Shown here piece by piece: positions 2,831-47,306 of a stretch of 63,333 nucleotides of DNA. The position numbers were made by a program, and so were the translations under genes. The notes beneath the pieces were generated by a model. It saw only the letters and a program-made list of their open reading frames with translations. It had not been told where the DNA came from and did not search any database. The number at the start of each line of letters is the position of its first letter. Position 1 is the first letter of the stretch. Origin of the DNA: Pseudolabrys sp. (GTDB taxonomy: Bacteria; Pseudomonadota; Alphaproteobacteria; Rhizobiales; Xanthobacteraceae); assembly GCA_025929185.1 (NCBI GenBank), contig JAICMO010000003.1, forward strand, positions 1 through 63,333, written 5' to 3'.

Positions 2831-4308
<1,478 letters not shown>

Positions 4309-4312
<4 letters not shown>

Positions 4313-4605
4313 CTGCGGATGAGGTTAGAGCGGATGCGCGGGCGTGTCTGGCAAACAATCGCGCAGCGGGCGATCTGGTTGATTGCGTGGCAAAGAACTT
4401 TCCCGATGTCGAGGTCTACCGCGAGATGGACGATCTCATCATTAAAGGTGGCGGCCGTTTTCTCGTGGTGCGCCGGACCGGCGAAGATCGCTTTCGTGTT
4501 TCAGAGAACGCCTGGGCGCCGACGACCAACCTCGTGGATTTTGGCGGCGGCACCGATCGCAGCCTTGACCAGTTGATTGATGAAATTTCGACGTTCGCAA
4601 GTTAA
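4309..4605 (+). CDS. Unassigned 98-aa protein inside the suf operon
   Basis: A small acidic soluble protein of 98 residues with no signal peptide, no membrane segment and no cysteine pair that would obviously ligate a cluster (one Cys near residue 13, one near 26). It has an alpha/beta pattern: an N-terminal helix, then [20 protein letters not shown] and a C-terminal helix. Its ATG overlaps the sufB stop (ATGA) and sufC follows 12 bases after its end, so it is embedded and translationally coupled in the operon. I do not recognise the family. A role as accessory or regulator of SufBCD is inference from position only. Confidence 0.8.
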
Positions 4606-4617
4606 GTGGGATCAACA

Positions 4618-5373
4618 ATGCTGCTTGAAGTCAAAAACCTGCACGTCGAGATCGACGGTAAGGCGATTCTGAACGGCCTCGATCTGACCATCGAGCAGGG
4701 GCAGGTCGCAGCTATCATGGGTCCGAACGGCTCCGGCAAATCGACACTTGCCTATGTGCTCGCCGGCAAGCCGAACTACGAGGTGACGCAAGGCGAGGTT
4801 TTGTTCGATGGCGCGAACATACTCGACATGGAACCGGACGAGCGCGCAGCCAAAGGCCTGTTCCTTGCATTCCAGTATCCAGTGGAAATTCCCGGCGTCG
4901 CGACAATGACCTTCCTGCGCACGGCGCTCAACGCGCAACGCAAGGCACGTGGCGAAGCGGAGTTTTCCACGCCCGACTTCATGAGACGCGTGCGCGAAAC
5001 GTCGGCGCATCTCGGCATCGATCAAGAAATGCTGCGGCGCGCGGTCAACGTGGGCTTCTCCGGCGGCGAGAAGAAGCGCAATGAAATCATGCAAATGGCG
5101 ATGCTGGAGCCGCGGCTGGCGGTGCTCGACGAAACCGACTCCGGCCTCGACATCGACGCGCTCAAGATCGTCGCCGATGGTGTCAACCGGCTGCGCTCGC
5201 CCAAGCGCTCGACGGTCGTCATCACGCATTATCAGCGGCTGTTGAACTACATCGTGCCGGATGTCGTGCACGTAATGTCGAAAGGCCGCGTGGTGAAGTC
5301 GGGCGGCAAAGAGCTCGCGCTTGAGCTCGAGGCCAAGGGCTACGCGCAATTCCAGGACGAGGTTGCAGCGTGA
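4618..5373 (+). CDS. sufC: Fe-S assembly ATPase SufC
   Basis: The ABC-type ATPase that drives conformational change in the SufBC2D scaffold complex. Walker A is GPNGSGKST, the signature FSGGEKKRNEI is the SufC variant, and Walker B is LAVLDETDSGLDID. At about 251 residues it has the standard length. The track starts at GTG 4606, but ATG 4618 (MLLEVKNLHV) matches family members and follows gggatcaaca. It is a soluble partner and not a transporter component, as shown by the sufB and sufD neighbours. Confidence 0.97.
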   Translation: MLLEVKNLHVEIDGKAILNGLDLTIEQGQVAAIMGPNGSGKSTLAYVLAGKPNYEVTQGEVLFDGANILDMEPDERAAKGLFLAFQYPVEIPGVATMTFLRTALNAQRKARGEAEFSTPDFMRRVRETSAHLGIDQEMLRRAVNVGFSGGEKKRNEIMQMAMLEPRLAVLDETDSGLDIDALKIVADGVNRLRSPKRSTVVITHYQRLLNYIVPDVVHVMSKGRVVKSGGKELALELEAKGYAQFQDEVAA

Positions 5374-5386
5374 TGATTAACTTCCT

Positions 5387-5501
5387 GTCATTGCCCGCGA
5401 AGGCGTGCGATCCAGTAAACGCAGGAGCAGTTGTGCATCCGGCTCTTCGACTCGCGCGGGCCGCAGGATTTACCGGATGCCCCGCTTTGGCGGGGCATGA
5501 C
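5387..5501. repeat. REP-like palindromic repeat between sufC and sufD
   Basis: The 145-bp spacer breaking the otherwise tight suf operon begins GTCATTGCCCGC and ends GCATGACAG. It contains a perfect 9-bp stem ATGCCCCGC/GCGGGGCAT with a TTTG loop (5477-5498). The GTCAT...ATGAC ends resemble other dispersed palindromes in this window (24093-24127, 61513-61555, 62189 onward). It could alter read-through or mRNA stability between sufC and sufD. The sequence features are direct; a mobile-repeat origin is inference. Confidence 0.7.
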
Positions 5502-5518
5502 AGGCGCTTGGTGATGTA

Positions 5519-6829
5519 ATGACCGCCGATCTGCGCACAATCAAAACGCCCGCCGAGCAGGCGCTGCACGACGCCTATGCTGAGGCACGTGCGAATTTGC
5601 CCGGCAAGGGTGCGCTTGCAAAGCTGCGTGAAGATGCGTTTCGGCACTTCGATGCAACGGGCCTGCCGCATCGGCGTATCGAGGAATGGAAATACACCGA
5701 TCTGCGTGCACTGATGCGCGATGCAAAGCCGCTCGCCGGCGCGCCTGACGAAGCGGCAAAGGCGCGCGCGAAGAACGCTGGCAGCATGGTTGCCGGCCTC
5801 GACTGCCGGCGGCTGGTGTTCGTCGATGGTGTTTTTGCGCCCGAGCTTTCCGATTTATCTTCGGAGCAAGGCCTGACCGTCGGTTCGATGGCAGATGCGT
5901 TGGCGAAGGGTGATCCGCTCGTCACAGCTTACGTCGGCAAGACGATCGAAACGGACGACGCCATTGTCGCGCTCAACACGGCGCTGATGGGCGATGGCAT
6001 AGTGATTCGCATCTCTGCGGGCGCAACGCTAAGGCGGCCGATTTTGATCGACTTCGCTTCCAGCATTCAACCCTCGTCGATTTTCTTGCGCTCGTTGATT
6101 GTGATCGAGAAGGGGGGCAAAGCACTCATTGTTGAAAATCATGATGCCAATGCATCGCAGATCAATGCCGCGCTGGAGCTTGTCGTCGGCGAAGGGGCCG
6201 AAGTTGATTATGTCAAGATCGCGCGCGGGCAAACCATTCACGTCGGGACATTGATGGCGTCGGTCGGAGCGCAGGCCAAGTTTAACACTTTCAATTTCAC
6301 GCTCGGCGGAGCGACCGTACGAAACCAGAACCTCGTCCGCTTCGATGGTCAAGGCACGGTTTCTGGTATCCGCGGGGCGACTCTGCTCCGGGCCAAAGAA
6401 CACGCCGACAACACGCTGTTGATCGACCATGCGGCCGGTGCCTGTGAGAGCCGCGAGCAATTCCGGTCGGTTCTCGATGGCGAGAGCAGCGGCGTGTTTC
6501 AGGGCAAGATCATCGTGCGCCCGCACGCGCAGAAGACCGACGCCAAGATGTCGAGCAATGCGCTGCTCATTTCCGACGATGCCGAGGCCGACAACAAGCC
6601 CGAGCTGGAGATTTTCGCCGACGACGTGCAATGCGGCCATGGCGCGACCGCCGGCGCGCTCGATGAGAACCAGAAATTTTATCTAATGGCGCGCGGCATT
6701 CCGGAAAAAGAAGCCGATGCCCTGCTCATTCAAGCGTTTGTTGGCGAAGTGATCGACATGATTGCGCACGAAGGCGTGCGTGACGCGCTGCTGAACGCGG
6801 CGGCCGAATGGCTCGCGGCACGGGACTGA
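5519..6829 (+). CDS. sufD: Fe-S cluster assembly protein SufD
   Basis: The SufB paralogue that pairs with SufB and SufC in the scaffold complex and is needed for iron entry. The 436-residue protein has the N-terminal helical part with LPHRRIEEWKYTDLR (a SufD hallmark), a beta-helix core, and the C-terminal stretch LEIFADDVQCGHGATAGALDENQKFYLMARGIPEKEA that carries the conserved Cys and His of the SufB-SufD interface. Start ATG 5519 lies just after the palindromic repeat. sufS starts 4 bases after the stop. Confidence 0.97.
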   Translation: MTADLRTIKTPAEQALHDAYAEARANLPGKGALAKLREDAFRHFDATGLPHRRIEEWKYTDLRALMRDAKPLAGAPDEAAKARAKNAGSMVAGLDCRRLVFVDGVFAPELSDLSSEQGLTVGSMADALAKGDPLVTAYVGKTIETDDAIVALNTALMGDGIVIRISAGATLRRPILIDFASSIQPSSIFLRSLIVIEKGGKALIVENHDANASQINAALELVVGEGAEVDYVKIARGQTIHVGTLMASVGAQAKFNTFNFTLGGATVRNQNLVRFDGQGTVSGIRGATLLRAKEHADNTLLIDHAAGACESREQFRSVLDGESSGVFQGKIIVRPHAQKTDAKMSSNALLISDDAEADNKPELEIFADDVQCGHGATAGALDENQKFYLMARGIPEKEADALLIQAFVGEVIDMIAHEGVRDALLNAAAEWLAARD

Positions 6830-6833
6830 GGCC

Positions 6834-8075
6834 ATGCATCCGGCGGTGAAAAACGGCAGTTATGACGTGGCCCGCATCCGGCAGGATTTTCCCGCGCTGG
6901 CGATGCGGGTCTACGGCAAGCCGCTGGTTTATCTCGACAACGCCGCGTCTGCGCAGAAGCCGCAAGTTGTGCTCGACCGCATGGACCATGCCTACAAGGC
7001 CGAATATGCCAACGTGCATCGGGGATTGCACTATCTCGCCAACACCGCGACCGAAGCGTATGAGGGCGCGCGCGACAAGGTGCGCATGTTCATCAATGCC
7101 GAGCGGGCGGAAGAGATCGTCTTCACGCGCAATGCTACCGAGGCGATCAACCTCGTCGCCTATACGTTCGGTCGCGAGCACATCAAGGAAGGCGACGAGA
7201 TCGTGCTCTCGATCATGGAGCACCATTCCAATATCGTGCCGTGGCATTTCCTGCGCGAGCGCCAGGGCGCCGTGATCAAATGGGCGCCGGTCGACGATGA
7301 AGGCAATTTTCTGCTTGATGAGTTCGAGAAGCTGCTGTCTCCGCGCACCAAGCTCGTCGCCATTACTCACATGTCGAACATGCTCGGCACGGTCGTGCCG
7401 GTGAAAGAGGTTGTGGCGCTCGCCCATGCGCGCGGCATTCCGGTGCTCGTCGACGGCGCACAGGGCGCGGTGCATCTTGACGTCGACGTCCGCGATATCG
7501 ATTGCGACTTCTACGCGTTCACGGGACACAAGGTTTACGGGCCGACCGGCGTGGGCGTGCTTTACGGCAAACATAAGCACCTCGCCGCGATACCGCCGTT
7601 CAACGGCGGCGGCGAAATGATTCGCGAGGTATTCGAGGATCGCATCACCTACGGCGACCCGCCGCACAAGTTCGAGGCGGGAACGCCGTCGATCGTGCAG
7701 GCGATCGGGCTTGGCGCGGCGATCGATTATATCAATTCGATCGGTAAGGAACGCATCCGCGCCCACGAGCATGAGGTTGCGAACTACGTGCACGAGCGTC
7801 TCCGGCAAATCAATTCGCTTCGCATTGTCGGCAATGCCAAAGACAAAGGGCCGATCGTGTCGTTCGAAATGAAAGGGGCACATCCCCATGATGTCGCGAC
7901 GATCATTGATCGATCCGGCGTGGCCGTACGCGCGGGTACCCATTGTGTCATGCCGCTGCTCGCCCGCTTCGGATTGACCGCGACCTGCCGCGCCTCGTTC
8001 GGTCTCTACAACACGAAAGAAGAGGTCGATACGCTCGCCGCGTCGCTTGCCAAGGCACAGGAATTCTTTGCATGA
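6834..8075 (+). CDS. sufS: Cysteine desulfurase SufS (group II)
   Basis: The SUF-type PLP cysteine desulfurase that supplies persulfide sulfur to SufBCD. The PLP lysine is in TGHKVYGPTG (about 233) and the active-site Cys in RAGTHCVMPLL (about 371), on the short rigid loop typical of group II enzymes. At 413 residues it has the family length. Such enzymes normally need SufE or SufU as sulfur acceptor, and neither is seen in this window. The stop overlaps the sufT start as ATGA. Confidence 0.97.
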   Translation: MHPAVKNGSYDVARIRQDFPALAMRVYGKPLVYLDNAASAQKPQVVLDRMDHAYKAEYANVHRGLHYLANTATEAYEGARDKVRMFINAERAEEIVFTRNATEAINLVAYTFGREHIKEGDEIVLSIMEHHSNIVPWHFLRERQGAVIKWAPVDDEGNFLLDEFEKLLSPRTKLVAITHMSNMLGTVVPVKEVVALAHARGIPVLVDGAQGAVHLDVDVRDIDCDFYAFTGHKVYGPTGVGVLYGKHKHLAAIPPFNGGGEMIREVFEDRITYGDPPHKFEAGTPSIVQAIGLGAAIDYINSIGKERIRAHEHEVANYVHERLRQINSLRIVGNAKDKGPIVSFEMKGAHPHDVATIIDRSGVAVRAGTHCVMPLLARFGLTATCRASFGLYNTKEEVDTLAASLAKAQEFFA

Positions 8076-36407: not shown

Positions 36408-36752
36408 TTAGCGCCGAAATGCCTTGCGGCAGAAGACGTCGTACATCGCGCCGATGAGCATGCGGACGTCGCTGCTCGCCAGGCTATAATAGACGATCTT
36501 TCCGTTTCGCCGTGTCGAAACCAATCCCTCGGCGCGCAGGCGCGCAAGTTGTTGCGACACCGTTGGCTGGCGCAAAGAGAGCATTTGCTCCAGTTCGCCG
36601 ACCGACTTCTCGCCTTCGGCGAGAATGCACAAAATCATCAGCCGGTTTTCATGCGCGACCGCTTTCAAGAAATTGCTTGCGCGTTTCGCATGGCCCACCA
36701 TGCGGTCGAGGTCGCGCGTGTGGCCGCCAATCTCGATTTGCTGCACGTCCAT
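36408..36752 (-). CDS. ArsR-family repressor with SqrR/BigR-like cysteine pair
   Basis: A 114-residue winged-helix repressor starting at ATG 36752 (MDVQQIEIGG); the track extension is rejected. The HTH is GEKSVGELEQMLSLRQPTVSQQLARLRAEGLVSTRRNGKIVYY. Cysteines lie at about 42 (LMILCILAEGE, helix 2) and 108 (YDVFCRKAFRR, C-terminal helix), the positions of the persulfide-sensing pair of SqrR (Cys41/Cys107) and BigR; metal-site motifs of classical ArsR are absent. It likely senses reactive sulfur, consistent with the Sox genes 4-8 kb away. DNA targets are not shown by sequence. Confidence 0.85.
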   Translation of the reverse strand: MDVQQIEIGGHTRDLDRMVGHAKRASNFLKAVAHENRLMILCILAEGEKSVGELEQMLSLRQPTVSQQLARLRAEGLVSTRRNGKIVYYSLASSDVRMLIGAMYDVFCRKAFRR

Positions 36753-37384
36753 GGTGTTTCCACAATGCGCATAATCCGCTGCGTGAATAGAGACGATTAG
36801 CCGATTTCGCGCAACGCTTTTTCGGATATCGAAATCGTGTGCCTGCGCGGCACGTTGAATTAGAATGATGGACGCGCCTGCAGCCATGAAAACAGAAGAA
36901 TTTTCCGCCATGTTTTCGTGCGCGCCCGTTCCATTCTAGACCGCCCTGAGCCGCACCTGAAAAGCTTCACACGGCAAAAGCAATCTCGAACTTTGCCATC
37001 CATCCTGCTCAGTTTCCAGATTTCAAAAGATGCCCGGTAGCCGCTGGCTGACTCGGCGATCACCCATGTGCGGGGCGCGATGTAGCAGCGGCGAAGAAAG
37101 TTAGTTGCAATGGCAAAGCGGTTTTTATCCGGCAAGCAGCGCACGCGCGCCTTCGTCCATGCCGGCGCATTCGCCATTAACCTAATGATTATACCGTCCT
37201 AGTCCCGGCGCATCGGCATTATCGGAACCGCGGCCGTGACATTCGGTAACCATGGTCTTTGAATAGGTCGCGTTGTTCTTGCTCCCGTGGCGCAGCATGG
37301 GTTTATAGATTGCGTTTAGGAAACCCACCAAGGGGGCGCTGGCGCACGCTGACGAGCGTGCGCGGGAAAAGCTAGGTCGATCTT
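36753..37384. other. 632-bp intergenic region without a confident gene
   Basis: This divergent region separates the repressor and the flavin oxidoreductase genes and probably holds both promoters. A 105-aa minus-strand ORF (36860-37177) is Arg/Cys/Trp-rich, has no recognisable motif and no good RBS, and is left uncalled. No clear ATTC-N8-GAAT operator was found. A perfect hairpin sits at its right end. Confidence 0.6.
37342..37363 (+). promoter_or_regulatory. Perfect 9-bp hairpin just upstream of the flavin oxidoreductase start
   Basis: GCGCACGCT and AGCGTGCGC pair perfectly around a GACG loop, ending 21 bases before ATG 37385. It would lie in the 5' leader next to the ribosome-binding region, or could be an operator. 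The function is unknown. Confidence 0.5.
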
Positions 37385-38620
37385 ATGTCGCATGACGCGT
37401 GTGAAGTTGCCATTGTCGGCGCCGGCCCTTACGGGCTTGCTATTTCAACCCATCTGAAAGTTGCCGGGGTATCTAGCAGAGTCTTCGGCGATACGATGGG
37501 CTTCTGGCGCAAGAATATGCCGAACGGCATGAAACTGCGCTCGCCCTGGCGCGCATCGCACATCATCGATCCCTCAGGCGAGCATTCGCTCGATGCGTTC
37601 GCGACGGCGAACGGGATCACGCGCACCGAGAATTTGCCGCTTAAGGATTTCGTTCGTTATGGCGAATGGTTCCAGCGCCGCGCCGTGCCGGACGTCGATC
37701 CGCGCATGGTCAAATCGATTGCGCCGGGTCGCAACGGCTTCCGGATCACGCTCGAAGATGGCGACACAGTCGATGCTCTGCGCGTCGTCGTCGCAATGGG
37801 CCTCACAAACCAGGCATTCCTGCCACAGCAATTCGATGGATTGCCGGCGGAACTTGCCAGCCATTCATCGGCGGTGGTTACGCCGGCGGATTTTCGCGGA
37901 AAGAAGGTTGCCGTGATTGGGCGTGGCCAGAGCGCGTGCGAGTCTGCTGTGTTGCTCAACGAAGCCGGCGCCGAGGTCGAGCTTATTTGCCGGGGGCCGG
38001 TACGCTGGATTGGCGCCGAAGCTTCGCAGCAGGGCCGCAGCGAGGTCGTCAAATGGTGGGTGCATAGGGTGATGACTGCGCCTTCGGCGATCGGACCATT
38101 TCCGTTCAACTGGGCGGTTGATGTGCCAAATGTTTTGCGCCTTTTACCGGGTAATTGGCGTGACGCGCTTAGTGCGCGCAGCCTGAGGGCGGCAGCCAGC
38201 GCATGGCTGCGCGCGCGCGCCGAAGGTGTCCGGATAAACACCGGACGCACCGTGCGTGAGGCGAGGGTGAGCGGCAGCCGCATCGCATTACACCTCGACA
38301 ACGGTATTTCCCTGTTTGATCATGTGGTGCTTGCAACCGGGTACAAAACCGATATCGCGAGACTCAATGTGTTATCGCCCGAGTTGTTGAAGCGTATCGC
38401 GCTGCGGGAGAATTTCCCGATCTTATCGCGCGGCTTCGAATCCTCGGTGCCGGGACTTCATTTTGTCGGATCGACGGCAGTCGGAAGCTTCGGTCCGTTG
38501 CCGCGTTTCGTTGCGGGCTGCGGTTATGCCGCGCGTTGCCTGACACGTGCCGTTCGCGCCGGGGCACAGTCCTCGCCCGTTGCCACCTTAATGCAACCGG
38601 CAATGCAGCCGCAGCAATGA
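37385..38620 (+). CDS. FAD-dependent oxidoreductase, flavin-monooxygenase-like
   Basis: A 411-residue two-dinucleotide-fold flavoprotein. The FAD motif is VAIVGAGPYGLAISTHL and the NADPH motif VAVIGRGQSACESAVLLNEAGAEVELICR; ATGYKTDIARLN near 325 is the FMO/N-hydroxylase ATG motif. There is no signal peptide. It is not an SQR, since the redox cysteines of that family are missing. The TGA stop is followed, in the same frame and after 30 bases, by the ATP-grasp gene with only a TTG start, so the two are probably functionally coupled. The substrate is unknown. Confidence 0.82.
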   Translation: MSHDACEVAIVGAGPYGLAISTHLKVAGVSSRVFGDTMGFWRKNMPNGMKLRSPWRASHIIDPSGEHSLDAFATANGITRTENLPLKDFVRYGEWFQRRAVPDVDPRMVKSIAPGRNGFRITLEDGDTVDALRVVVAMGLTNQAFLPQQFDGLPAELASHSSAVVTPADFRGKKVAVIGRGQSACESAVLLNEAGAEVELICRGPVRWIGAEASQQGRSEVVKWWVHRVMTAPSAIGPFPFNWAVDVPNVLRLLPGNWRDALSARSLRAAASAWLRARAEGVRINTGRTVREARVSGSRIALHLDNGISLFDHVVLATGYKTDIARLNVLSPELLKRIALRENFPILSRGFESSVPGLHFVGSTAVGSFGPLPRFVAGCGYAARCLTRAVRAGAQSSPVATLMQPAMQPQQ

Positions 38621-38650
38621 CGTTGGATTTGTGAGCGCCGGGATTCGACC

Positions 38651-39916
38651 TTGACCGCCTCTCGACATCGCGACCCCGGTGCGCTCATCGTCGGCGGCGC
38701 GCATGGCGGACTTGCAGTCGCTCGCAGCCTCGGCCGCCAGGGCATACCGATTTTTTTTCTCACGCACGACAACCTGATTACGAAGTTTTCGCGTTACGTC
38801 ACGGGAAGCGCCGCCTGGTCGGGGCCGGAGCAGCCGGATGCCGCCGAAGAGCTGTTGAAGATTGGCCGCAAGCATGGTCTCGAAGGTTGCGTGCTGTTGC
38901 CGGGAGGTGATGCCGAAGTCCAGCTAATCGCCAAAAATCATGCCGCGTTGTCGAAATTCTTCCGGGTCACCACGCCGGATTGGACGACTTGCAAGTGGGC
39001 GCTCGACAAGCGGCTGACCTATCAGCGCGCCGCCTCCCTCGGCATAGGCTATCCGCGCAGCTTTTATCCGCATAACAGGATGGAGCTTGCGCACCTCGAC
39101 TGCCGCTTCCCAGTCGTTTTGAAACCAACGGCGCGGCATAGCGTAAACGCCTTCACGTTGGCAAAAGCCTGGCAAGCTGACGATCCGGCAAGCTTAACTG
39201 AGCGCTACGATCAAGCGTCTGCCTTGGTGGGTGCGGACGGGATCGTCCTGCAAGAAATGATCGTGGGCGGGGGCGAGTCGCAGTATTCGTATGCAGCCGT
39301 CTGGGATCACGGGCGGCCTGTTGCATCTTTGGTTGCGCGCCGTGCGCGGCAATACCCGATCCACTTCGGCTTCACCAGCACGCTCGTGCAAAGCATGGAC
39401 TGTCCCGAAGTGGCAGAGGCCGGCTCTCGCTTTTTGCAGTCGCTCGATTATCACGGTATCGCCGAAGTCGAATTCAAGTACGACGCCGCCGACGGTCGTT
39501 ATAAGATTCTCGACGTTAACGCGCGCGCCTGGACCTGGATCGCGCTCGGAGGCAGTGCTGGCGTCGATTTTCCATACATTCTCTGGCAGGTCGCGACAGG
39601 TAAGACGGTTACGCCGGTGCGTGGTCGTAGCGGTGCGACATGGATGCACTTTTCGAGAGATCTTGCGGCGGCTTGCCAGGAAATTATCGTGGGACGCATC
39701 AAGCCGGCTACCTACCTGAGATCGTTCCGTTGGCCGACGACCTTTGCCGCCTTTGCCACCGACGATTTGTTGCCAGGCGTAATGGATTTGCCGTTGCTTG
39801 GATGGCGGCTCATTTCTCGTCGATTGCCGGGGCTTTTACGAAGGATCGGCTTTCAAATCGTAAAAGGCTTTAATCGCGCCCGCGATTTCGCTCATCCGCC
39901 GATACAACGGTCATAG
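38651..39916 (+). CDS. ATP-grasp carboxylate-amine ligase-like protein (TTG start)
   Basis: A 421-residue protein with a preATP-grasp Rossmann-like start (GALIVGGAHGGLAVARSLG), the KPTARHSVNAFTLAKAW ATP-binding segment, an IVLQEMIVGGG stretch and the Mg-binding end AEVEFKYDAADGRYKILDVNARAW. It is similar in layout to carbamoyl-phosphate-synthase-like and D-aspartate-ligase-like enzymes, often found in polysaccharide or peptide-modification loci. The C-terminal about 80 residues form a basic amphipathic tail. TTG 38651 is the only possible start before the upstream in-frame TGA. It is paired with the flavin oxidoreductase; the product is unknown. Confidence 0.8.
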   Translation: MTASRHRDPGALIVGGAHGGLAVARSLGRQGIPIFFLTHDNLITKFSRYVTGSAAWSGPEQPDAAEELLKIGRKHGLEGCVLLPGGDAEVQLIAKNHAALSKFFRVTTPDWTTCKWALDKRLTYQRAASLGIGYPRSFYPHNRMELAHLDCRFPVVLKPTARHSVNAFTLAKAWQADDPASLTERYDQASALVGADGIVLQEMIVGGGESQYSYAAVWDHGRPVASLVARRARQYPIHFGFTSTLVQSMDCPEVAEAGSRFLQSLDYHGIAEVEFKYDAADGRYKILDVNARAWTWIALGGSAGVDFPYILWQVATGKTVTPVRGRSGATWMHFSRDLAAACQEIIVGRIKPATYLRSFRWPTTFAAFATDDLLPGVMDLPLLGWRLISRRLPGLLRRIGFQIVKGFNRARDFAHPPIQRS

Positions 39917-40052: not shown

Positions 40053-40826
40053 TTAGCCGAAGCGGAAAGCGAGCAGATTATCGATTGCGCGCAGTTCATC
40101 CAATATCCGACGTACGCGGCCCAAGTCCTTCTCAGCTACTGCCTGCCGAATTAGCGTGAGACTTTGTTTGGCGCCGTCTACAAGTCGGCGGAACGTCGGC
40201 TGCACGCGGATGTCGTCGCCCGCGATATCGTCGCAATGACGAAGCTGTGCATCGTAACGTTTGACTTCGTCGGCGAGCCCGTTGCGGGTTTTCGCGGTAG
40301 CGAGATCAAGATCATCTTTGTCATATTTGGCGAGCGCTTCCATCACATTGTTGGCACGCAGGATGCAGTCGGGGAGCACATCGACTCCTGCCGATTGACG
40401 CAGATTTGCAATTTCGATGCGAATGGCGGCAAGCGATTGCGCGGCGATATCAGGGCGCCCCATCGTGAGCATCATGTCGGCGGCGACAAGGCGCGTGCTG
40501 ACGTCGGTAAGGACGGTTGTGTAGCGGGTGACATCCTTGAAGATCGGCGGTCGCTTTGCCGCAAAGCTGCCGACGAATTCACGCCACGCGGTCCGTGCGC
40601 GATCGATTTCGAGCGAAGCGATATCTGTGTTGCCTGTGCGAAGATAACCAAGAGCGACGCGGTTGTGGGCCGACGCTCGTTCGACGGCGGCATTAAAATC
40701 CGCAAGCTGGTCCGCATGCGCTGAACAGCCGAGAAACACCGTGGTGGCAAACAAAGCCGGGATGAGCGTTCGAAGGGCGGCCGCCATTCGGTCTTGAACT
40801 GCGCGCCAGGCATGGCTGACGACCAT
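40053..40826 (-). CDS. Secreted helical protein of unknown function, divergent from the sox genes
   Basis: A 257-residue protein from ATG 40826 (GGAG directly before; a second Met 13 codons later gives a cleaner signal peptide, MAAALRTLIPALFATTVFLGCSAHA, cleaved before DQL). The mature part is almost entirely predicted helix with repeated Leu/Ala heptads and two possible helical hairpins (LADFNAAVERASAHNRVALGYLRTG... and RRLVDGAKQSLTLIRQAVAEKDLGR...). There is no CxxCH, so it is not a cytochrome c'. It has two Cys about 45 residues apart in the mature part. It shares a 104-bp divergent promoter region with the Sox operon, suggesting co-regulation. I do not recognise the family. Confidence 0.7.
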   Translation of the reverse strand: MVVSHAWRAVQDRMAAALRTLIPALFATTVFLGCSAHADQLADFNAAVERASAHNRVALGYLRTGNTDIASLEIDRARTAWREFVGSFAAKRPPIFKDVTRYTTVLTDVSTRLVAADMMLTMGRPDIAAQSLAAIRIEIANLRQSAGVDVLPDCILRANNVMEALAKYDKDDLDLATAKTRNGLADEVKRYDAQLRHCDDIAGDDIRVQPTFRRLVDGAKQSLTLIRQAVAEKDLGRVRRILDELRAIDNLLAFRFG

Positions 40827-40930
40827 CTCCTTCACCTGTCCCTTAGCCAATTGTATATACCTGCGACTATAGACACGGAGGCCGTCGGCGGGCGAGCGAG
40901 TTGCGTCCGCGTGGTTAGGAAACAGCATCT

Positions 40931-41497
40931 ATGAACAGGCGGGATTTGCTGGCCGGCATGGCCTCGATTGGTGCGCTCACGGTGACCCGCGGCGACGCCG
41001 AGCCGATTCTCACCGATGATGGACTCTACAAAGAATCATGGTTTCTCGAGAGCTTCCTCGATCTGCCGGACGACCTCGAGGATGCGCACAAAGAGGGCAA
41101 GCGCTTTGCCATCATGTGGGAGTTGAAAGGCTGCCCCTACTGCAAGGAAACGCATTTCGTCAATTTTGCGCAGGCGCGTATCTCGGACTACATCCGCTTC
41201 AATTTCGAGGTTTTGCAGCTCAATATCATCGGCTCTCGCAAGGTGACGGATTTCGACGGCGCCGAATTGGGCGAGAAGGAGCTCGCAGCGAAATACAACA
41301 TTCGCTTCACCCCCACGTTCCAGTTCTTTCCGGAGCGGGCGGAGGGCCTCAAAGACCTGGCCCCCACGAAACGGGAGGTGGCGCGCGCTCCCGGCTACAT
41401 GCGCCCCGACGACTTCCTCGCGCTGTTCCGCTACATCCGGGAGAAAGGTTACGAAACCAAGAGCTTCCGCGATTTTCTCAAGGCGTTGCCGAGCTGA
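40931..41497 (+). CDS. Periplasmic thioredoxin-fold protein, SoxS/SoxW-like
   Basis: A 188-residue exported thioredoxin-fold protein. The N-terminus MNRRDLLAGMASIGALTVTRGDA is a short twin-arginine-type signal. The active site is WELKGCPYCKETHF (CPYC) and the cis-Pro is in RFTPTFQFF. In Sox systems SoxS/SoxW keep the SoxY carrier cysteine reduced. It is the first gene of the sox series, 110 bp before soxY. The exact SoxS versus SoxW name cannot be decided here. Confidence 0.88.
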   Translation: MNRRDLLAGMASIGALTVTRGDAEPILTDDGLYKESWFLESFLDLPDDLEDAHKEGKRFAIMWELKGCPYCKETHFVNFAQARISDYIRFNFEVLQLNIIGSRKVTDFDGAELGEKELAAKYNIRFTPTFQFFPERAEGLKDLAPTKREVARAPGYMRPDDFLALFRYIREKGYETKSFRDFLKALPS

Positions 41498-41607
41498 ATT
41501 GGTACATCTTAAAGCTATTCCCGAGAATGATTTGAACAGGCCTCGCGCCGCCGCTATGGTGCCGCACGGTGGCTGATCCAGCCTCGAAGCTGTCAGGGAG
41601 TAACTCG

Positions 41608-42063
41608 ATGCGACTGATTTCCCGCCGCCGCGCGCTCGTGCTGACTGCCGGCAGCGCGGCCGCGGCAGCGCTTGGCTGGAGCGGCAAGAGCCGCGCCACG
41701 CCCAAGGACGCCGCCGAAGCAATTGCGAAATTCACCGGCGGCAAGACGGCCGAAAACGGCAAGATAAGTATCGAACTCCCGGAAATCGCCGAAAACGGCA
41801 ATACGGTGCCGCTCAAAGTGAGCGTGGATGCGCCAATGAATGCTGACGATTACGTCAGCGACATTCTTGTCATTGCGGACGGCAATCCGCTGCCGCGCGT
41901 CGTGACCTTCCGCTTTACGCCGATGTCGGGAAAAGCGGTGGCGTCCACCCGTATCCGGCTTGCCACCACCGAAAACATCATCGCCGTCGCGAAGACGAGC
42001 GGCGGCCAGATTTTCACTGCTCAGAAACTGGTGAAGGTCACGATCGGCGGCTGCGGCGGCTGA
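41608..42063 (+). CDS. soxY: Thiosulfate-oxidation carrier protein SoxY
   Basis: SoxY covalently holds sulfur intermediates on its C-terminal swinging arm during periplasmic thiosulfate oxidation. The protein ends in VTIGGCGG, the conserved GGCGG-type arm with the carrier Cys. The N-terminus SRRRALVLTAGSAAAAALGWSG is a twin-arginine signal, matching Tat export of SoxYZ. ATG 41608 follows cagggag; the track start at 41569 adds 13 residues ahead of the Tat motif. At 151 residues it is full length. Confidence 0.97.
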   Translation: MRLISRRRALVLTAGSAAAAALGWSGKSRATPKDAAEAIAKFTGGKTAENGKISIELPEIAENGNTVPLKVSVDAPMNADDYVSDILVIADGNPLPRVVTFRFTPMSGKAVASTRIRLATTENIIAVAKTSGGQIFTAQKLVKVTIGGCGG

Positions 42064-42092: not shown

Positions 42093-42416
42093 ATGGCCGC
42101 GACGCCGCGCCTCAAGCTTCCGCGGGAAGCCAAGAAAGGCGATATCATCGAGATCAAGACCTTGCTTCCGCACCCGATGGAGTCCGGACAGCGCAAGGGG
42201 AAGGACGGCAAGGTGATCCCGCGCAAGATCATCAACAAGTTTGTTTGCACGTTCAATGATAAGCCGGTGTTCACCGCCGGTCTTGAGCCCGCGGTCGCCG
42301 CCAATCCTTACCTGGAATTTTTCGCGAAGGTCGAGGAAAGCGGCACGTTCAAATTTACCTGGACGGACGACGACGGCACCGTGACGACTGCGGAGCAAAA
42401 GATCATCGTGACGTGA
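42093..42416 (+). CDS. soxZ: Sulfur-oxidation protein SoxZ
   Basis: The non-covalent partner of SoxY, co-exported with it because it lacks its own signal peptide. The 107-residue sequence has the family start RLKLPREAKKGDIIEIKTLLPHPMESGQRKG and the Ig-like fold ending GTFKFTWTDDDGTVTTAEQKIIV. RBS gggagaacgg precedes ATG 42093. It is 29 bp after soxY and 57 bp before the fused soxXA gene. Confidence 0.97.
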   Translation: MAATPRLKLPREAKKGDIIEIKTLLPHPMESGQRKGKDGKVIPRKIINKFVCTFNDKPVFTAGLEPAVAANPYLEFFAKVEESGTFKFTWTDDDGTVTTAEQKIIVT

Positions 42417-42473: not shown

Positions 42474-43739
42474 ATGAGGCAGGGGGGTATATTCGCCGCG
42501 GGCGCGGCATTCTTGATCGTCGCGGGCGCCTTCGTGCTTGCCGTTACCCCTGCGTCGTTCGCGCAGGCGAAAGAATTAGCTCCACTCGATACCAAAGGCG
42601 ACGCCTCGATCCGGCCGTGGAAGCGCTATGACAAGTGGCCCAAGCGCGACGAGTCTAAATTCAACACGCTTGCGAAAATCTCCTCGCCACCCGCGCCGAA
42701 AGAGCCCCGCAAGCTGTCCGGGCCGATCAAAGGCGATGCCGCCAACGGCGCAAAACTGGTTTCCAACCGCAAACGCGGCGGCTCTTGTCTCGCCTGTCAT
42801 GTGATGGGACCGGCGGGCGGTGCCAATCTTCCGGGCAATGTGGGACCGGACCTGTCTGAAATCGGAAATGCAAATCTGACGGACGAATTCCTGTTCAACT
42901 ACATTTACGACGCGCGTGTCTACAATCCGGAGACTGTCATGCCGCCGTGGGGCAGCCACGGCCTGTTCAACGATCAGGAAATCAGCGACATGGTCGCGTT
43001 CCTGAAAACGCTGAAGTCTCCGGCGGTATTCAAGACTGCACTCGACAATCCCGAGAAACGGCCTGCGCCGGTTGAAAAGCGCGCTAATCTTGACCCGATG
43101 GAAAATCCGGGCATGTGGGCGATCGACAAGGCGAAGGAGCTTTGGAGCAAGGTCGGCTCGACCGGCAAGTCCTGCGCCAGTTGCCACGGCAATCCCGCCA
43201 TGCAGTTCAAGGCTTGGGCATCGTCCCTGCCGAAATGGGAACCGCGGCTTAACAAGGTGCTGGGCGTGGAGGAATTCATTACGCGCCACGCGCGAGCGAC
43301 AACCGGCGCCGAGTACCTGATGGAGACCGACGACAATCGCGTCCTGTCGGTCTATCTGCACAATCTTGCAGAAGGCGTGCCGATCACGGTTGACGTTTCC
43401 AACGCCGCGGCCAAAGCCGCCTACAAGCGCGGTGAGGTGTTGGCCAACCGTAAACTCGGCCAGTTGAACTTTGCCTGCACCGATTGCCACGGCAAATCGG
43501 CCAACCACTGGATCCGCGGCCAATGGTTGGGGACATTGAAGGGCCAGTACGACCACTTCCCGACCTGGCGCACCAGCCAGCTCGTCATCTGGGACATTCG
43601 TCAGCGTTTCCAATGGTGCCAAGTCAATATTCGTGCTGACGAACTGCCACCCGATGCGAAGGAATACGGCGATCTCGAGCTTTACCTGGCAGCACAGAAC
43701 GACGGCCTTAAAGAGAACGTGCCGGGCATTCGTCACTAG
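42474..43739 (+). CDS. Fused SoxX-SoxA cytochrome c, three haem motifs
   Basis: SoxXA couples thiosulfate to the SoxY cysteine. Normally two polypeptides, here one 421-residue chain. In order: signal peptide (about 1-32, cleaved near FAQA); a SoxX domain with GSCLACH (Cys105-Cys108-His109) and the distal Met in ETVMPPWG (Met156); a linker (about 180-205); a SoxA domain with GKSCASCHG (234-238), FACTDCHG (335-339) and the catalytic/haem-ligand Cys in QRFQWCQVNIRADE (382). A single ORF without frameshift supports a true fusion. It lies between soxZ and soxB, and no separate soxX or soxA exists in the window. Confidence 0.94.
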   Translation: MRQGGIFAAGAAFLIVAGAFVLAVTPASFAQAKELAPLDTKGDASIRPWKRYDKWPKRDESKFNTLAKISSPPAPKEPRKLSGPIKGDAANGAKLVSNRKRGGSCLACHVMGPAGGANLPGNVGPDLSEIGNANLTDEFLFNYIYDARVYNPETVMPPWGSHGLFNDQEISDMVAFLKTLKSPAVFKTALDNPEKRPAPVEKRANLDPMENPGMWAIDKAKELWSKVGSTGKSCASCHGNPAMQFKAWASSLPKWEPRLNKVLGVEEFITRHARATTGAEYLMETDDNRVLSVYLHNLAEGVPITVDVSNAAAKAAYKRGEVLANRKLGQLNFACTDCHGKSANHWIRGQWLGTLKGQYDHFPTWRTSQLVIWDIRQRFQWCQVNIRADELPPDAKEYGDLELYLAAQNDGLKENVPGIRH

Positions 43740-43797: not shown

Positions 43798-45483
43798 ATG
43801 ATTACGCGCCGTGAGTTTGTGGGAGTAGCGGCGGCCACTGCCACGTTGGCGGTGGGCGGCGGTTCCCTTACCCGCGCGCTGACCAAGCAGCGGCTTACCG
43901 AAGCGGAGTTGTTTAAATTCGACCCGCTCGGCAATGTGACGATCCTGCATGTCGCCGATCTGCACGCACAACTGCAACCGGTCTATTTTCGCGAACCGTC
44001 GATCAATCTCGGCATCGGCTCAAGCAAGGGCCTGGCGCCACATCTGACCGGGCGCGCGTTCCTTAAGCATTTCGGCATCAAGGAAAGGTCGCCGGCAGCT
44101 TACGCTTTGACATCGCTCGAATTCGCAGCGCTCGCCAGAGAGTACGGCCGCATGGGTGGGCTGGACCGCCTTGCAACAGCGCTCAAGCACGTCCGTGCCG
44201 AACGCGGCGAGGACAAGGTACTGTTTCTTGACGGCGGCGACAGTCTGCAAGGCTCGCTCGGCGCGAACCAAAGCAAAGGCCAAGATGTCCTCGACTGCAT
44301 GCGGCTGCTCAAGCCCGACGCCATGACCGGCCATTGGGAATTCACGTACGGCGAAACGCGCGTGAAGGAGATTGCCAAGTCCGTTCCGTTTCTTGCACTC
44401 AACGTGCGTGATACGGAGTGGAACGAGCCGGTTTTCGAGCCGATGAGGCTGTTCGAGAAAGGCGGCGTGAAGGTGGCCGTGCTTGGCCAGGCTTTTCCGT
44501 ACACGCCGATCGCGAACCCGGCCTGGATGATGCCGAATTGGTCCTTCGGCATTCGCGAGGACGACGTGCGCGCCAATGTCGAGAAGGCGCGCAAGAACGG
44601 GGCACAACTGATCGTATTGCTCTCGCACAACGGCTTTGATGTTGACCGCAAGCTGGCGTCACGCGTCGCAGGCATCGACGTGATCCTCACAGGACACACC
44701 CACGATGCGCTTCCTGAAGTCGTCAAGGTTGGCACGACGTTGCTGGTTGCGTCCGGCTGCGACGGGAAATTCCTTTCGCGGCTCGATCTCGATGTGCAAG
44801 GCGGACAGGTGAAGGATTTTCGCTACAAACTCATTCCTCTGTTTGCCGATGCAATCACGCCGGACAAAGAAATGACGCTGGCTATCGAAAAGGCGCGGGC
44901 GCCATATGCAAAAGAGCTCAGGCGCATTGTGGGCCACACGGAAACGCTGCTTTACCGACGCGGCAATTTCAACGGCACGTTCGACGACCTCATCTGCGCT
45001 GCAATCATGCAGGCACGCGATGCCGAAATCGCGCTCTCGCCCGGCTTTCGCTGGGGGACGAGCTTGCTGCCGGGGCAGACGATCACGGTCGAGGACATCC
45101 ATAACGTGACCGCCATCAGCTACCCGCAGGTCTATCGCACGACGATGACGGGCGAACGCCTGAAGGAGATTCTGGAGGACGTTGCCGACAATCTGTTCAA
45201 CCCCGATCCCTATTACCAGCAAGGCGGCGACATGGTCCGCTGTGGCGGCCTCGGTTATGCAATCGACGTTGGCAAGCCAGCCGGTCAGCGTATTTCGGCG
45301 ATGACTCACCGGAAATCAGGCAAGCCGATCGAGGCTGGCAAAAATTACGTCATCACCGGCTGGGCCAGCGTCAACCATGGCACCGAAGGTCCTCAGATAT
45401 GGGAACTGGTCGAGCGTTACGTGGCGGCGGAAAAAACTGTGCGGATGAAGCCCAATAGGTTGGTCACGATTTCCGGGGCCTGA
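43798..45483 (+). CDS. soxB: Sulfate thiohydrolase SoxB
   Basis: A di-manganese periplasmic hydrolase that releases sulfate from the SoxY-bound thiosulfonate. The N-terminus ITRREFVGVAAATATLAVGGGS is a Tat signal. Metal-site motifs of the 5'-nucleotidase-like fold are VTILHVADLHAQLQPVYFREPS, LDGGDSLQGS, the SoxB-specific TGHWEFTYG, LLSHNGFDVD and LTGHTHD. At 561 residues it is full length. It closes the sox series, 58 bp after soxXA; soxCD does not follow. Confidence 0.97.
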   Translation: MITRREFVGVAAATATLAVGGGSLTRALTKQRLTEAELFKFDPLGNVTILHVADLHAQLQPVYFREPSINLGIGSSKGLAPHLTGRAFLKHFGIKERSPAAYALTSLEFAALAREYGRMGGLDRLATALKHVRAERGEDKVLFLDGGDSLQGSLGANQSKGQDVLDCMRLLKPDAMTGHWEFTYGETRVKEIAKSVPFLALNVRDTEWNEPVFEPMRLFEKGGVKVAVLGQAFPYTPIANPAWMMPNWSFGIREDDVRANVEKARKNGAQLIVLLSHNGFDVDRKLASRVAGIDVILTGHTHDALPEVVKVGTTLLVASGCDGKFLSRLDLDVQGGQVKDFRYKLIPLFADAITPDKEMTLAIEKARAPYAKELRRIVGHTETLLYRRGNFNGTFDDLICAAIMQARDAEIALSPGFRWGTSLLPGQTITVEDIHNVTAISYPQVYRTTMTGERLKEILEDVADNLFNPDPYYQQGGDMVRCGGLGYAIDVGKPAGQRISAMTHRKSGKPIEAGKNYVITGWASVNHGTEGPQIWELVERYVAAEKTVRMKPNRLVTISGA

Positions 45484-45542: not shown

Positions 45543-46529
45543 ATGCCTCGATTGAACTTGTCCGTCGCCGTCGGCGCTTACGATCGCACCCGTGCGCTTG
45601 TTGACGGCAGCGTGCAGATCGACGGTGTGCAGGCGACCTGCATGACGCTCTCGCCGGAGGAAATCTTCTTCCGTGCCTTTCGCCATGCCGAATTCGACAT
45701 TTGCGAATTGTCGCTGTCGAGTTTTACGGTCAAGACCGCGCAGGGCGGTGCACCTTACGTCGGCGTGCCGGCTTTCGTTTCGCGCATGTTTCGTCACAAC
45801 TCGATTTACGTGCGCACGGACCGCATCAAGAAGCCGGAAGACTTGAAGGGCAAAAAGGTCGGCCTGCCGGAATATCAATTGACCGCCAACGTGTGGGCGC
45901 GCGCCATCCTGCAGGACGATTATGGTGTGAAGGCATCGGACATCCACTGGATCCGCGGGGGCATCGAGGACGCCGACCGTCCGGAAAAGATAACGATCAA
46001 ATTGCCGGCGGATGTGAAGCTCGAGAACGCGCCGCGCGGCAAGACAATTTCCACGCTGCTCGCGGATGGCGCCATCGACGCGTTCATGGCGCCACGTCCG
46101 CCCTCGCTGCCGGAGAACACGCCGAATGTCGGGTGGCTCTTTTCCGACCCCGCCGCCGCTGCGCAGGATTACTTCAAACGTACTGGCATTTTTCCGATCA
46201 TGCACATCGTCGGCGTGCGGCGTGAGCTTGCGGAAAAGCATCCATGGTTACCCGGCGCGGTATACAAGGCCTTCGAGCAATCGAAGACGGCGGCGCTTGA
46301 ATTGCTCGCTGATACTTCGGCGGCAAAAGTGACGCTGCCGTTTGTCGAGGAGCGGCTGAAAGAGGCGCGCGAATTAATGGGCGAAGATTTCTGGCCCTAC
46401 GGCTTCGATGCCAATCGCAAAACGTTGGAGACTTTCCTGCGACACCACCATGCGCAGGGGCTTTCGCCCCGGCTGGTAAAGCCGGAAGAACTTTTCCATC
46501 CAGGCACGCACGAATCTTTCAAGCTCTAG
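45543..46529 (+). CDS. NMT1-fold / 4,5-dihydroxyphthalate-decarboxylase-like protein
   Basis: A 328-residue periplasmic-binding-fold protein with no signal peptide, of the type annotated as 4,5-dihydroxyphthalate decarboxylase or ABC substrate-binding protein. Family features are MTLSPEEIFFRAFRHAEFDICELSLSSF, GVPAFVSRMFRHNSIYVRTD, PEDLKGKKVGLPEYQLTANVWARAILQ, and FPIMHIVGVRRELAEKHPW. The lack of a signal argues for a cytosolic enzyme rather than transport. A paralogue lies at 54653. It is 59 bp after soxB but probably unrelated to sulfur oxidation. It converges with the ABC operon together with the ModA-like gene. Confidence 0.85.
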   Translation: MPRLNLSVAVGAYDRTRALVDGSVQIDGVQATCMTLSPEEIFFRAFRHAEFDICELSLSSFTVKTAQGGAPYVGVPAFVSRMFRHNSIYVRTDRIKKPEDLKGKKVGLPEYQLTANVWARAILQDDYGVKASDIHWIRGGIEDADRPEKITIKLPADVKLENAPRGKTISTLLADGAIDAFMAPRPPSLPENTPNVGWLFSDPAAAAQDYFKRTGIFPIMHIVGVRRELAEKHPWLPGAVYKAFEQSKTAALELLADTSAAKVTLPFVEERLKEARELMGEDFWPYGFDANRKTLETFLRHHHAQGLSPRLVKPEELFHPGTHESFKL

Positions 46530-46547
46530 CCTCGAAATGGAGGGCCG

Positions 46548-47306
46548 ATGAAGAGCCTGTCAGGATCGATCACCTTATGCGCCATGGTAACTAGCATGTC
46601 CGTGTCAGCCACTGAAATCCATGTCATGAGCGGCGGCGCACCAAAGGAAGTCTTCGCGCACCTCACGCCGGAATTCGAGAAGCAGACCGGACACAACGTC
46701 AAATTCACTTATGCCGTCATCACCGAGTTGCGCCAGAAAATTGCGGCCGGCGAGAAGGCCGATGTCCTGGTCATGCCGATGCCGGTGCTCGATCAACTTG
46801 CCAAGGAAAACAAATTGCGCGCCGACAGTCGCGCCACATTTGGCACGGTCGGCATCAGCGTGGTGGTGAAGGAGGGCTCGCCCAAGCCGGACATTTCGAC
46901 CAAAGAGAAATTCCGGGAGGCGATGCTCGCCGCAAAATCGGTGGTGCACGCGACACCCGGCAAAACGCCGAGCGGCACGCACATGGGCAAAGTGATGGAG
47001 CAACTCGGCATTGCCGAGGCTATGGCCAAGAAGGTCATGCACAAGCCGGCGCTCGACGGCGGGGTGCAACTCGTTTCGGCCGGACAGGCCGATATCGGCA
47101 TCTATCCGGCGAGCGAAGTTGCGACCGTCAAGGGGCTGACGATCGTCGGCTCGCTGCCCGCGGGCATCGACTTCACCATCGTCTACGGCGGGGCTGCAAC
47201 GGCAGGCAGCGCCGCGGGAGATGCCGCCGCAGCCTTCGTGACGTTCATGGCTGGTCCGGAAAACCGCGGCGTCTGGAAGGAGGCGGGCTTCGAGCCGCCG
47301 AAGTAA
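46548..47306 (+). CDS. Orphan ModA-like substrate-binding protein
   Basis: A 252-residue exported protein of the ModA/solute-binding type: short signal peptide (MKSLSGSITLCAMVTSMSVSA, cleavage before TEIHVM), then a two-lobe fold with LTPEFEKQTGHNVKFTYA, LVMPMPVLDQLAKENKL and ADIGIYPASEV. GGAGG precedes ATG 46548, 18 bp after the previous gene. No modB/modC is present, and orphan members of this clade often bind ligands other than molybdate. The ligand is unknown. Confidence 0.85.
   Translation: MKSLSGSITLCAMVTSMSVSATEIHVMSGGAPKEVFAHLTPEFEKQTGHNVKFTYAVITELRQKIAAGEKADVLVMPMPVLDQLAKENKLRADSRATFGTVGISVVVKEGSPKPDISTKEKFREAMLAAKSVVHATPGKTPSGTHMGKVMEQLGIAEAMAKKVMHKPALDGGVQLVSAGQADIGIYPASEVATVKGLTIVGSLPAGIDFTIVYGGAATAGSAAGDAAAAFVTFMAGPENRGVWKEAGFEPPK

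Follow-up and report, generated by a model that had tools for sequence, protein, structure and literature searches.

A fused SoxX-SoxA gene with a histidine at the haem-1 distal position in the sox cluster of a Pseudolabrys genome

The sox cluster and its fused gene

The DNA analysed here (the window) is a stretch of 63,333 nucleotides from Pseudolabrys sp., and it carries a sox cluster in which profile matches above their cut-offs gave the gene order soxY-soxZ-soxXA-soxB (Table 1). Among the routes of thiosulfate oxidation in bacteria, the commonest begins with SoxAX; here SoxX and SoxA are specified by one gene. The divergently placed gene beside the cluster encodes a protein that matched nothing in Pfam or NCBIfam. 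Further out lies a gene for an ArsR-family repressor, which was also found near related clusters. Between the repressor gene and the sox cluster (37385-39916) are a gene for a FAD-dependent oxidoreductase and an ATP-grasp-like gene, which were not detected in related loci. Directly 3' of soxB (45543-47306) are two solute-binding-protein genes, one SsuA/NMT1-like and one ModA-like, which recur in several relatives (e.g., L003, L009 and L011).

Table 1. Coordinates of the sox cluster, its neighbours and the parts of soxXA in the window
Feature	Positions	Strand	Basis
ArsR-family repressor, BigR-like but sub-threshold	36408..36911	-	106 bits vs cut-off 155
Protein, divergently placed, conserved beside the sox cluster of Pseudolabrys-type loci	40053..40928	-	synteny
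Thioredoxin-like protein, conserved in Pseudolabrys-type sox cluster	40931..41497	+	PF13098; synteny
soxY, product ends GGCGG	41569..42063	+	TIGR04488 above cut-off
soxZ	42093..42416	+	TIGR04490 above cut-off
soxXA, SoxX-SoxA fusion, 421 aa, three CxxCH	42474..43739	+	single open frame
Predicted signal peptide, residues 1-31, hydrophobic core, cleavage after AQA	42474..42566	+	sequence reading
SoxX domain, residues 85-181	42726..43016	+	TIGR04485 above cut-off
SoxX haem motif CLACH, residues 105-109	42786..42800	+	invariant 55/55
Met156, distal ligand of SoxX haem	42939..42941	+	invariant 55/55
Linker, residues 181-211, 31 aa	43014..43106	+	same length 55/55; pLDDT 83-90
SoxA domain, residues 205-421	43086..43736	+	TIGR04484 above cut-off; fold match 1h31_A
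SoxA haem-1 motif CASCH, residues 234-238	43173..43187	+	invariant 55/55
His272, replacing haem-1 distal cysteine	43287..43289	+	invariant 55/55; absent from separate SoxA
SoxA catalytic haem motif CTDCH, residues 335-339	43476..43490	+	invariant 55/55
Cys382, catalytic haem ligand	43617..43619	+	aligned to solved SoxA; invariant 55/55
soxB	43798..45483	+	TIGR04486, 823 bits

The soxXA frame begins at an ATG (42474) preceded by GGGAGG, ends with the last base of its stop codon at 43739, and reads through a signal peptide, a SoxX domain and a dihaem SoxA domain without interruption. Residues 102-180 scored 76.8 bits against the SoxX model TIGR04485 (cut-off 61), and residues 212-420 scored 159 bits against the SoxA model TIGR04484 (cut-off 110), spanning model positions 1-211 of 212; both thresholds are the curated equivalog cut-offs of NCBI. 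The assignment was the same whether the protein was scanned whole or as separate halves, the first half matching SoxX and the second SoxA. For the first half SoxX was the top-scoring model by a wide margin, so that a non-Sox cytochrome in this position was rejected. A sequence search against solved structures matched SoxA and SoxX chains only. The AlphaFold2 model (pLDDT 84.5, pTM 0.82), in which the predicted signal peptide is disordered, ranked solved SoxA chains first and SoxX chains next; its SoxA part matched 1h31_A with an rmsd of 1.8 and a TM-score of 0.77 normalised by target, and its SoxX part gave TM-scores by target of 0.46-0.62 against solved SoxX chains.

A scan of named species genomes recovered the same fusion at full length in 54 further sequences from 53 other genomes, at 51-78% identity. 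Together with soxXA of the window these make up the 55 aligned sequences, all of which keep the three CxxCH motifs, Met156 and Cys382. Arg348, Arg366 and Arg378 are invariant or nearly so among the fused relatives, and the signal peptide cleavage site has the consensus A-x-AQA. A preliminary description of this DNA had proposed the SoxX and SoxA domains, three haems, Met156, Cys382 as a ligand, and a position between soxZ and soxB, and on each of these points the present data agree with it. The linker is exactly 31 residues long in every one of the 55 sequences, its sequence is partly conserved, and it is predicted to be ordered, which suggests a fixed structural element rather than a loose tether.

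The distal position of haem 1

In the alignment with SoxA of Rhodovulum and Paracoccus, His272 falls, with no local gap, on the cysteine that follows haem 1 (within NACR or NACV), which serves as the distal haem-1 ligand in both structures. A histidine occupies this position in 55 of 55 sequences of the lineage and in none of 59 separate SoxA proteins, nearly all of which have cysteine and a few serine or glutamate; among the latter are the dihaem SoxA proteins L063 and L120 (serine) and L128 (glutamate). The histidine is also found in a distant fused protein (L098, genome G527). It was missing from the preliminary description. When the SoxA tree was reconstructed with the trait column left out, all histidine-bearing sequences fell into one clade (support 100/99), so that on this tree the substitution counts as one evolutionary event and not many. 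In another six SoxA proteins (L059, L060, L077, L089, L105 and L107), YxxCF or YxxCY replaces the haem-1 CxxCH, and these probably have no haem 1, though they are otherwise like the dihaem type.

Since His272 takes the place of the distal cysteine, haem 1 is probably ligated by two histidines (His238 and His272) instead of His/Cys. It could be supposed that His272 points away, and that haem 1 is five-coordinate or bound by some other ligand: the ligand role of His272 is read from an alignment, the predicted model contains no haem, and the separate SoxA proteins with serine or glutamate indicate a site that tolerates ligand loss. However, the histidine is present in all 55 sequences and in L098 as well, exactly at the position of the ligand cysteine, which makes this alternative unlikely, and the His/His assignment is preferred.

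Haem 1 has no clear role in canonical SoxAX. If it is His/His ligated in the fused protein, its potential should exceed that of a His/Cys haem; the His/Cys active-site haems of SoxAX have reported potentials at or below about -400 mV (PMC6879331). That a higher potential makes haem 1 useful is speculation. The wider proposal, that these proteins form a distinct, widespread single-chain SoxXA lineage whose haem 1 has shifted from His/Cys to His/His ligation, and in which haem 1 may do useful work in electron transfer within a fixed three-haem chain, is put forward tentatively, as a possibility judged less likely than not.

Distribution and origin of the fusion

Carriers of the fused gene include Pseudolabrys, Reyranella, Enhydrobacter aerosaccus ATCC 27094, Vineibacter terrae, Xanthobacteraceae and some Rhodocyclaceae, with isolate genomes among them. 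One more copy was located on a complete plasmid of Indioceanicola profundi. One relative (L028) has tandem fused copies (4305-5684 and 5956-7188) upstream of soxB, both with the histidine. Of 37 fusion-carrying genomes checked, 24 also have a canonical SoxA and 13 have no other SoxA; in these 13, and in the gammaproteobacterial genomes G780 and G638, the sole SoxX sits in the same frame as SoxA. The fusion is thus the sole SoxX and the sole SoxA in 15 further genomes, including that of the isolate Pseudolabrys sp. Root1462. In the family of the window (GTDB), seven of 120 sampled genomes gave SoxA matches in frames of fused length and within the score range of the fused type, most SoxA-bearing genomes of the sample having the canonical form; two genomes of its own genus have the canonical form only. 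Fused and separate forms therefore replace one another among close relatives. No soxC scored above cut-off in the source assembly, which is 90% complete (best match 157 bits against 420), but a link between the fusion and loss of SoxCD was rejected, as soxC was above cut-off in 25 of the 37 fused genomes, often just downstream. In L003, the closest relative, soxC is on a different stretch than the gene order of the window would suggest.

The fused protein might be a paralogue acting on another substrate or with another partner, and not the enzyme that joins thiosulfate to SoxYZ, the histidine and long branch reflecting a changed function. Its SoxA domain does form a separate, long-branched clade, a canonical SoxA accompanies it in the 24 genomes mentioned, and neither soxYZ nor soxB was recognised in G780 or G638 within about 6 kb. 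On the other side, the fusion is the only SoxXA in the source genome as well as in the 15 others, soxYZ and soxB lie alongside it here and in nearly all alphaproteobacterial loci, and the catalytic cysteine and arginine residues are invariant. A paralogue of this kind is accordingly considered quite improbable. The preliminary description had suggested that the fusion is the working SoxXA, with no second soxX or soxA nearby; none was found anywhere in the source assembly (281 contigs, 90% complete), and its inference gains support from the genomes in which the fusion stands alone.

Residues 209 and 214, close to the join, are methionines and could in principle provide an internal start, giving a separate SoxA besides the fusion. 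A protein begun at either of them would carry no signal peptide and hence would not be exported for haem attachment, and the length of the linker and part of its sequence are conserved. Such a second product is very improbable. That a sequencing or assembly error joined adjacent soxX and soxA genes, as might be suspected of a contig from a fragmented assembly of 281, has a negligible chance of being correct and is refuted by the relatives, because the same join, with an open frame and a 31-residue linker, recurs in 54 full-length sequences from independent assemblies, isolates among them, and on the complete plasmid of I. profundi; a hidden stop and restart is in effect excluded by the same sequences.

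Fusion does not require the histidine, since three gammaproteobacterial fused SoxXA proteins, L099 (G836), L100 (G813) and L101 (G626), keep the haem-1 cysteine; on this reading of the sequences, the histidine marks one fused lineage. The SoxA tree places L100 and L101 among separate SoxA proteins, adjoining L104 and L108, which are encoded by unfused genes. As fused proteins occupy at least two places in this tree, the SoxX-SoxA fusion probably arose two or more times, in each case with SoxX as the leading part, and L099, L100 and L101 are apparently independent fusions. The tree of the shorter SoxX had the same outline at lower resolution. A single origin of all fused SoxXA was absent from the best tree and was mildly rejected (p-AU 0.035), with long branches in play. 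In four gammaproteobacterial genomes with long flanks (L132, L133, L135 and L136, with L138 left out) and in L137, no counterpart of soxYZ and soxB of the window was found within about 6 kb. L098 (G527:C1:1253647-1254780) is very divergent, sits away from recognisable soxYZ and soxB, and its genome also has three canonical SoxA genes.

Proposed function and relation to known systems

The gene very likely encodes a single-chain periplasmic SoxXA that conjugates thiosulfate to SoxYZ and passes electrons out via the SoxX haem, with haem 1 probably His/His ligated. In the SoxA family, thiosulfate becomes bound to the catalytic cysteine as an S-thiosulfonate; SoxYZ resolves this adduct, and electrons exit through the SoxX haem. 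For the fused protein, one signal peptide would export the entire chain, to which three haems c would be attached. At the catalytic haem (CTDCH, ligand Cys382), thiosulfate would then be oxidatively joined to the SoxYZ arm cysteine by way of a cysteine S-thiosulfonate, SoxYZ, supplied by the neighbouring genes, resolving this intermediate, and SoxB would next hydrolyse off sulfate. Electrons would travel, without leaving the polypeptide, to the His/Met haem of SoxX and from there to a soluble cytochrome c. The fusion would fix the ratio of SoxA to SoxX and keep the electron exit beside the catalytic haem. The S-thiosulfonate mechanism has been supported in the SoxA-family enzyme TsdA (PMC4423706).

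SoxAX has been termed highly recalcitrant to mechanistic analysis (PMC4423706), and a stable form in one chain, its stoichiometry fixed, would be a convenient subject for study, while the natural exchange of cysteine for histidine offers a direct comparison for the role of haem 1. There is also a consequence for annotation, as surveys that count soxX and soxA separately may score genomes with the fusion as missing one of them.

The SoxX-SoxA architecture is already known: in Halorhodospira, SoxX is fused to the N-terminus of SoxA as a single tri-haem protein (PMC8877833, published in 2022). The departure from the usual heterodimer pointed out in the preliminary description is therefore real but not singular, having been published for that genus and occurring in over 50 other genomes. 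Among open-access papers, no report was found of a fused SoxXA in Alphaproteobacteria or of the haem-1 histidine, and none that names such a protein from Pseudolabrys or Reyranella. The proteins of Halorhodospira, compared by description only, likewise place SoxX N-terminal to a dihaem SoxA in one chain, but their hosts are gammaproteobacterial halophilic phototrophs and that of the window is an alphaproteobacterium. TsdBA of Marichromatium purpuratum (5lo9) is similar in that a SoxA-family catalytic part is fused to an electron-accepting dihaem cytochrome (PMC6879331); however, it makes tetrathionate without SoxYZ, and the fold match to soxXA is weak (TM about 0.2). SoxAX of Starkeya novella (3oa8) shares the family and the catalytic haem, but it has two chains and its SoxA has no haem 1, whereas soxXA has the haem-1 motif in one chain. 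Domains, haem number, catalytic cysteine and fold are shared with the tri-haem SoxAX of Rhodovulum sulfidophilum and Paracoccus pantotrophus (1h31, 2c1d). Canonical SoxAX is made of separate chains and soxXA of one frame; compared with the dihaem SoxA of these two species, soxXA has the haem-1 motif without the distal cysteine. Theirs is a protein of two chains with a cysteine at the distal position of haem 1, and that of the window a single chain with a histidine.
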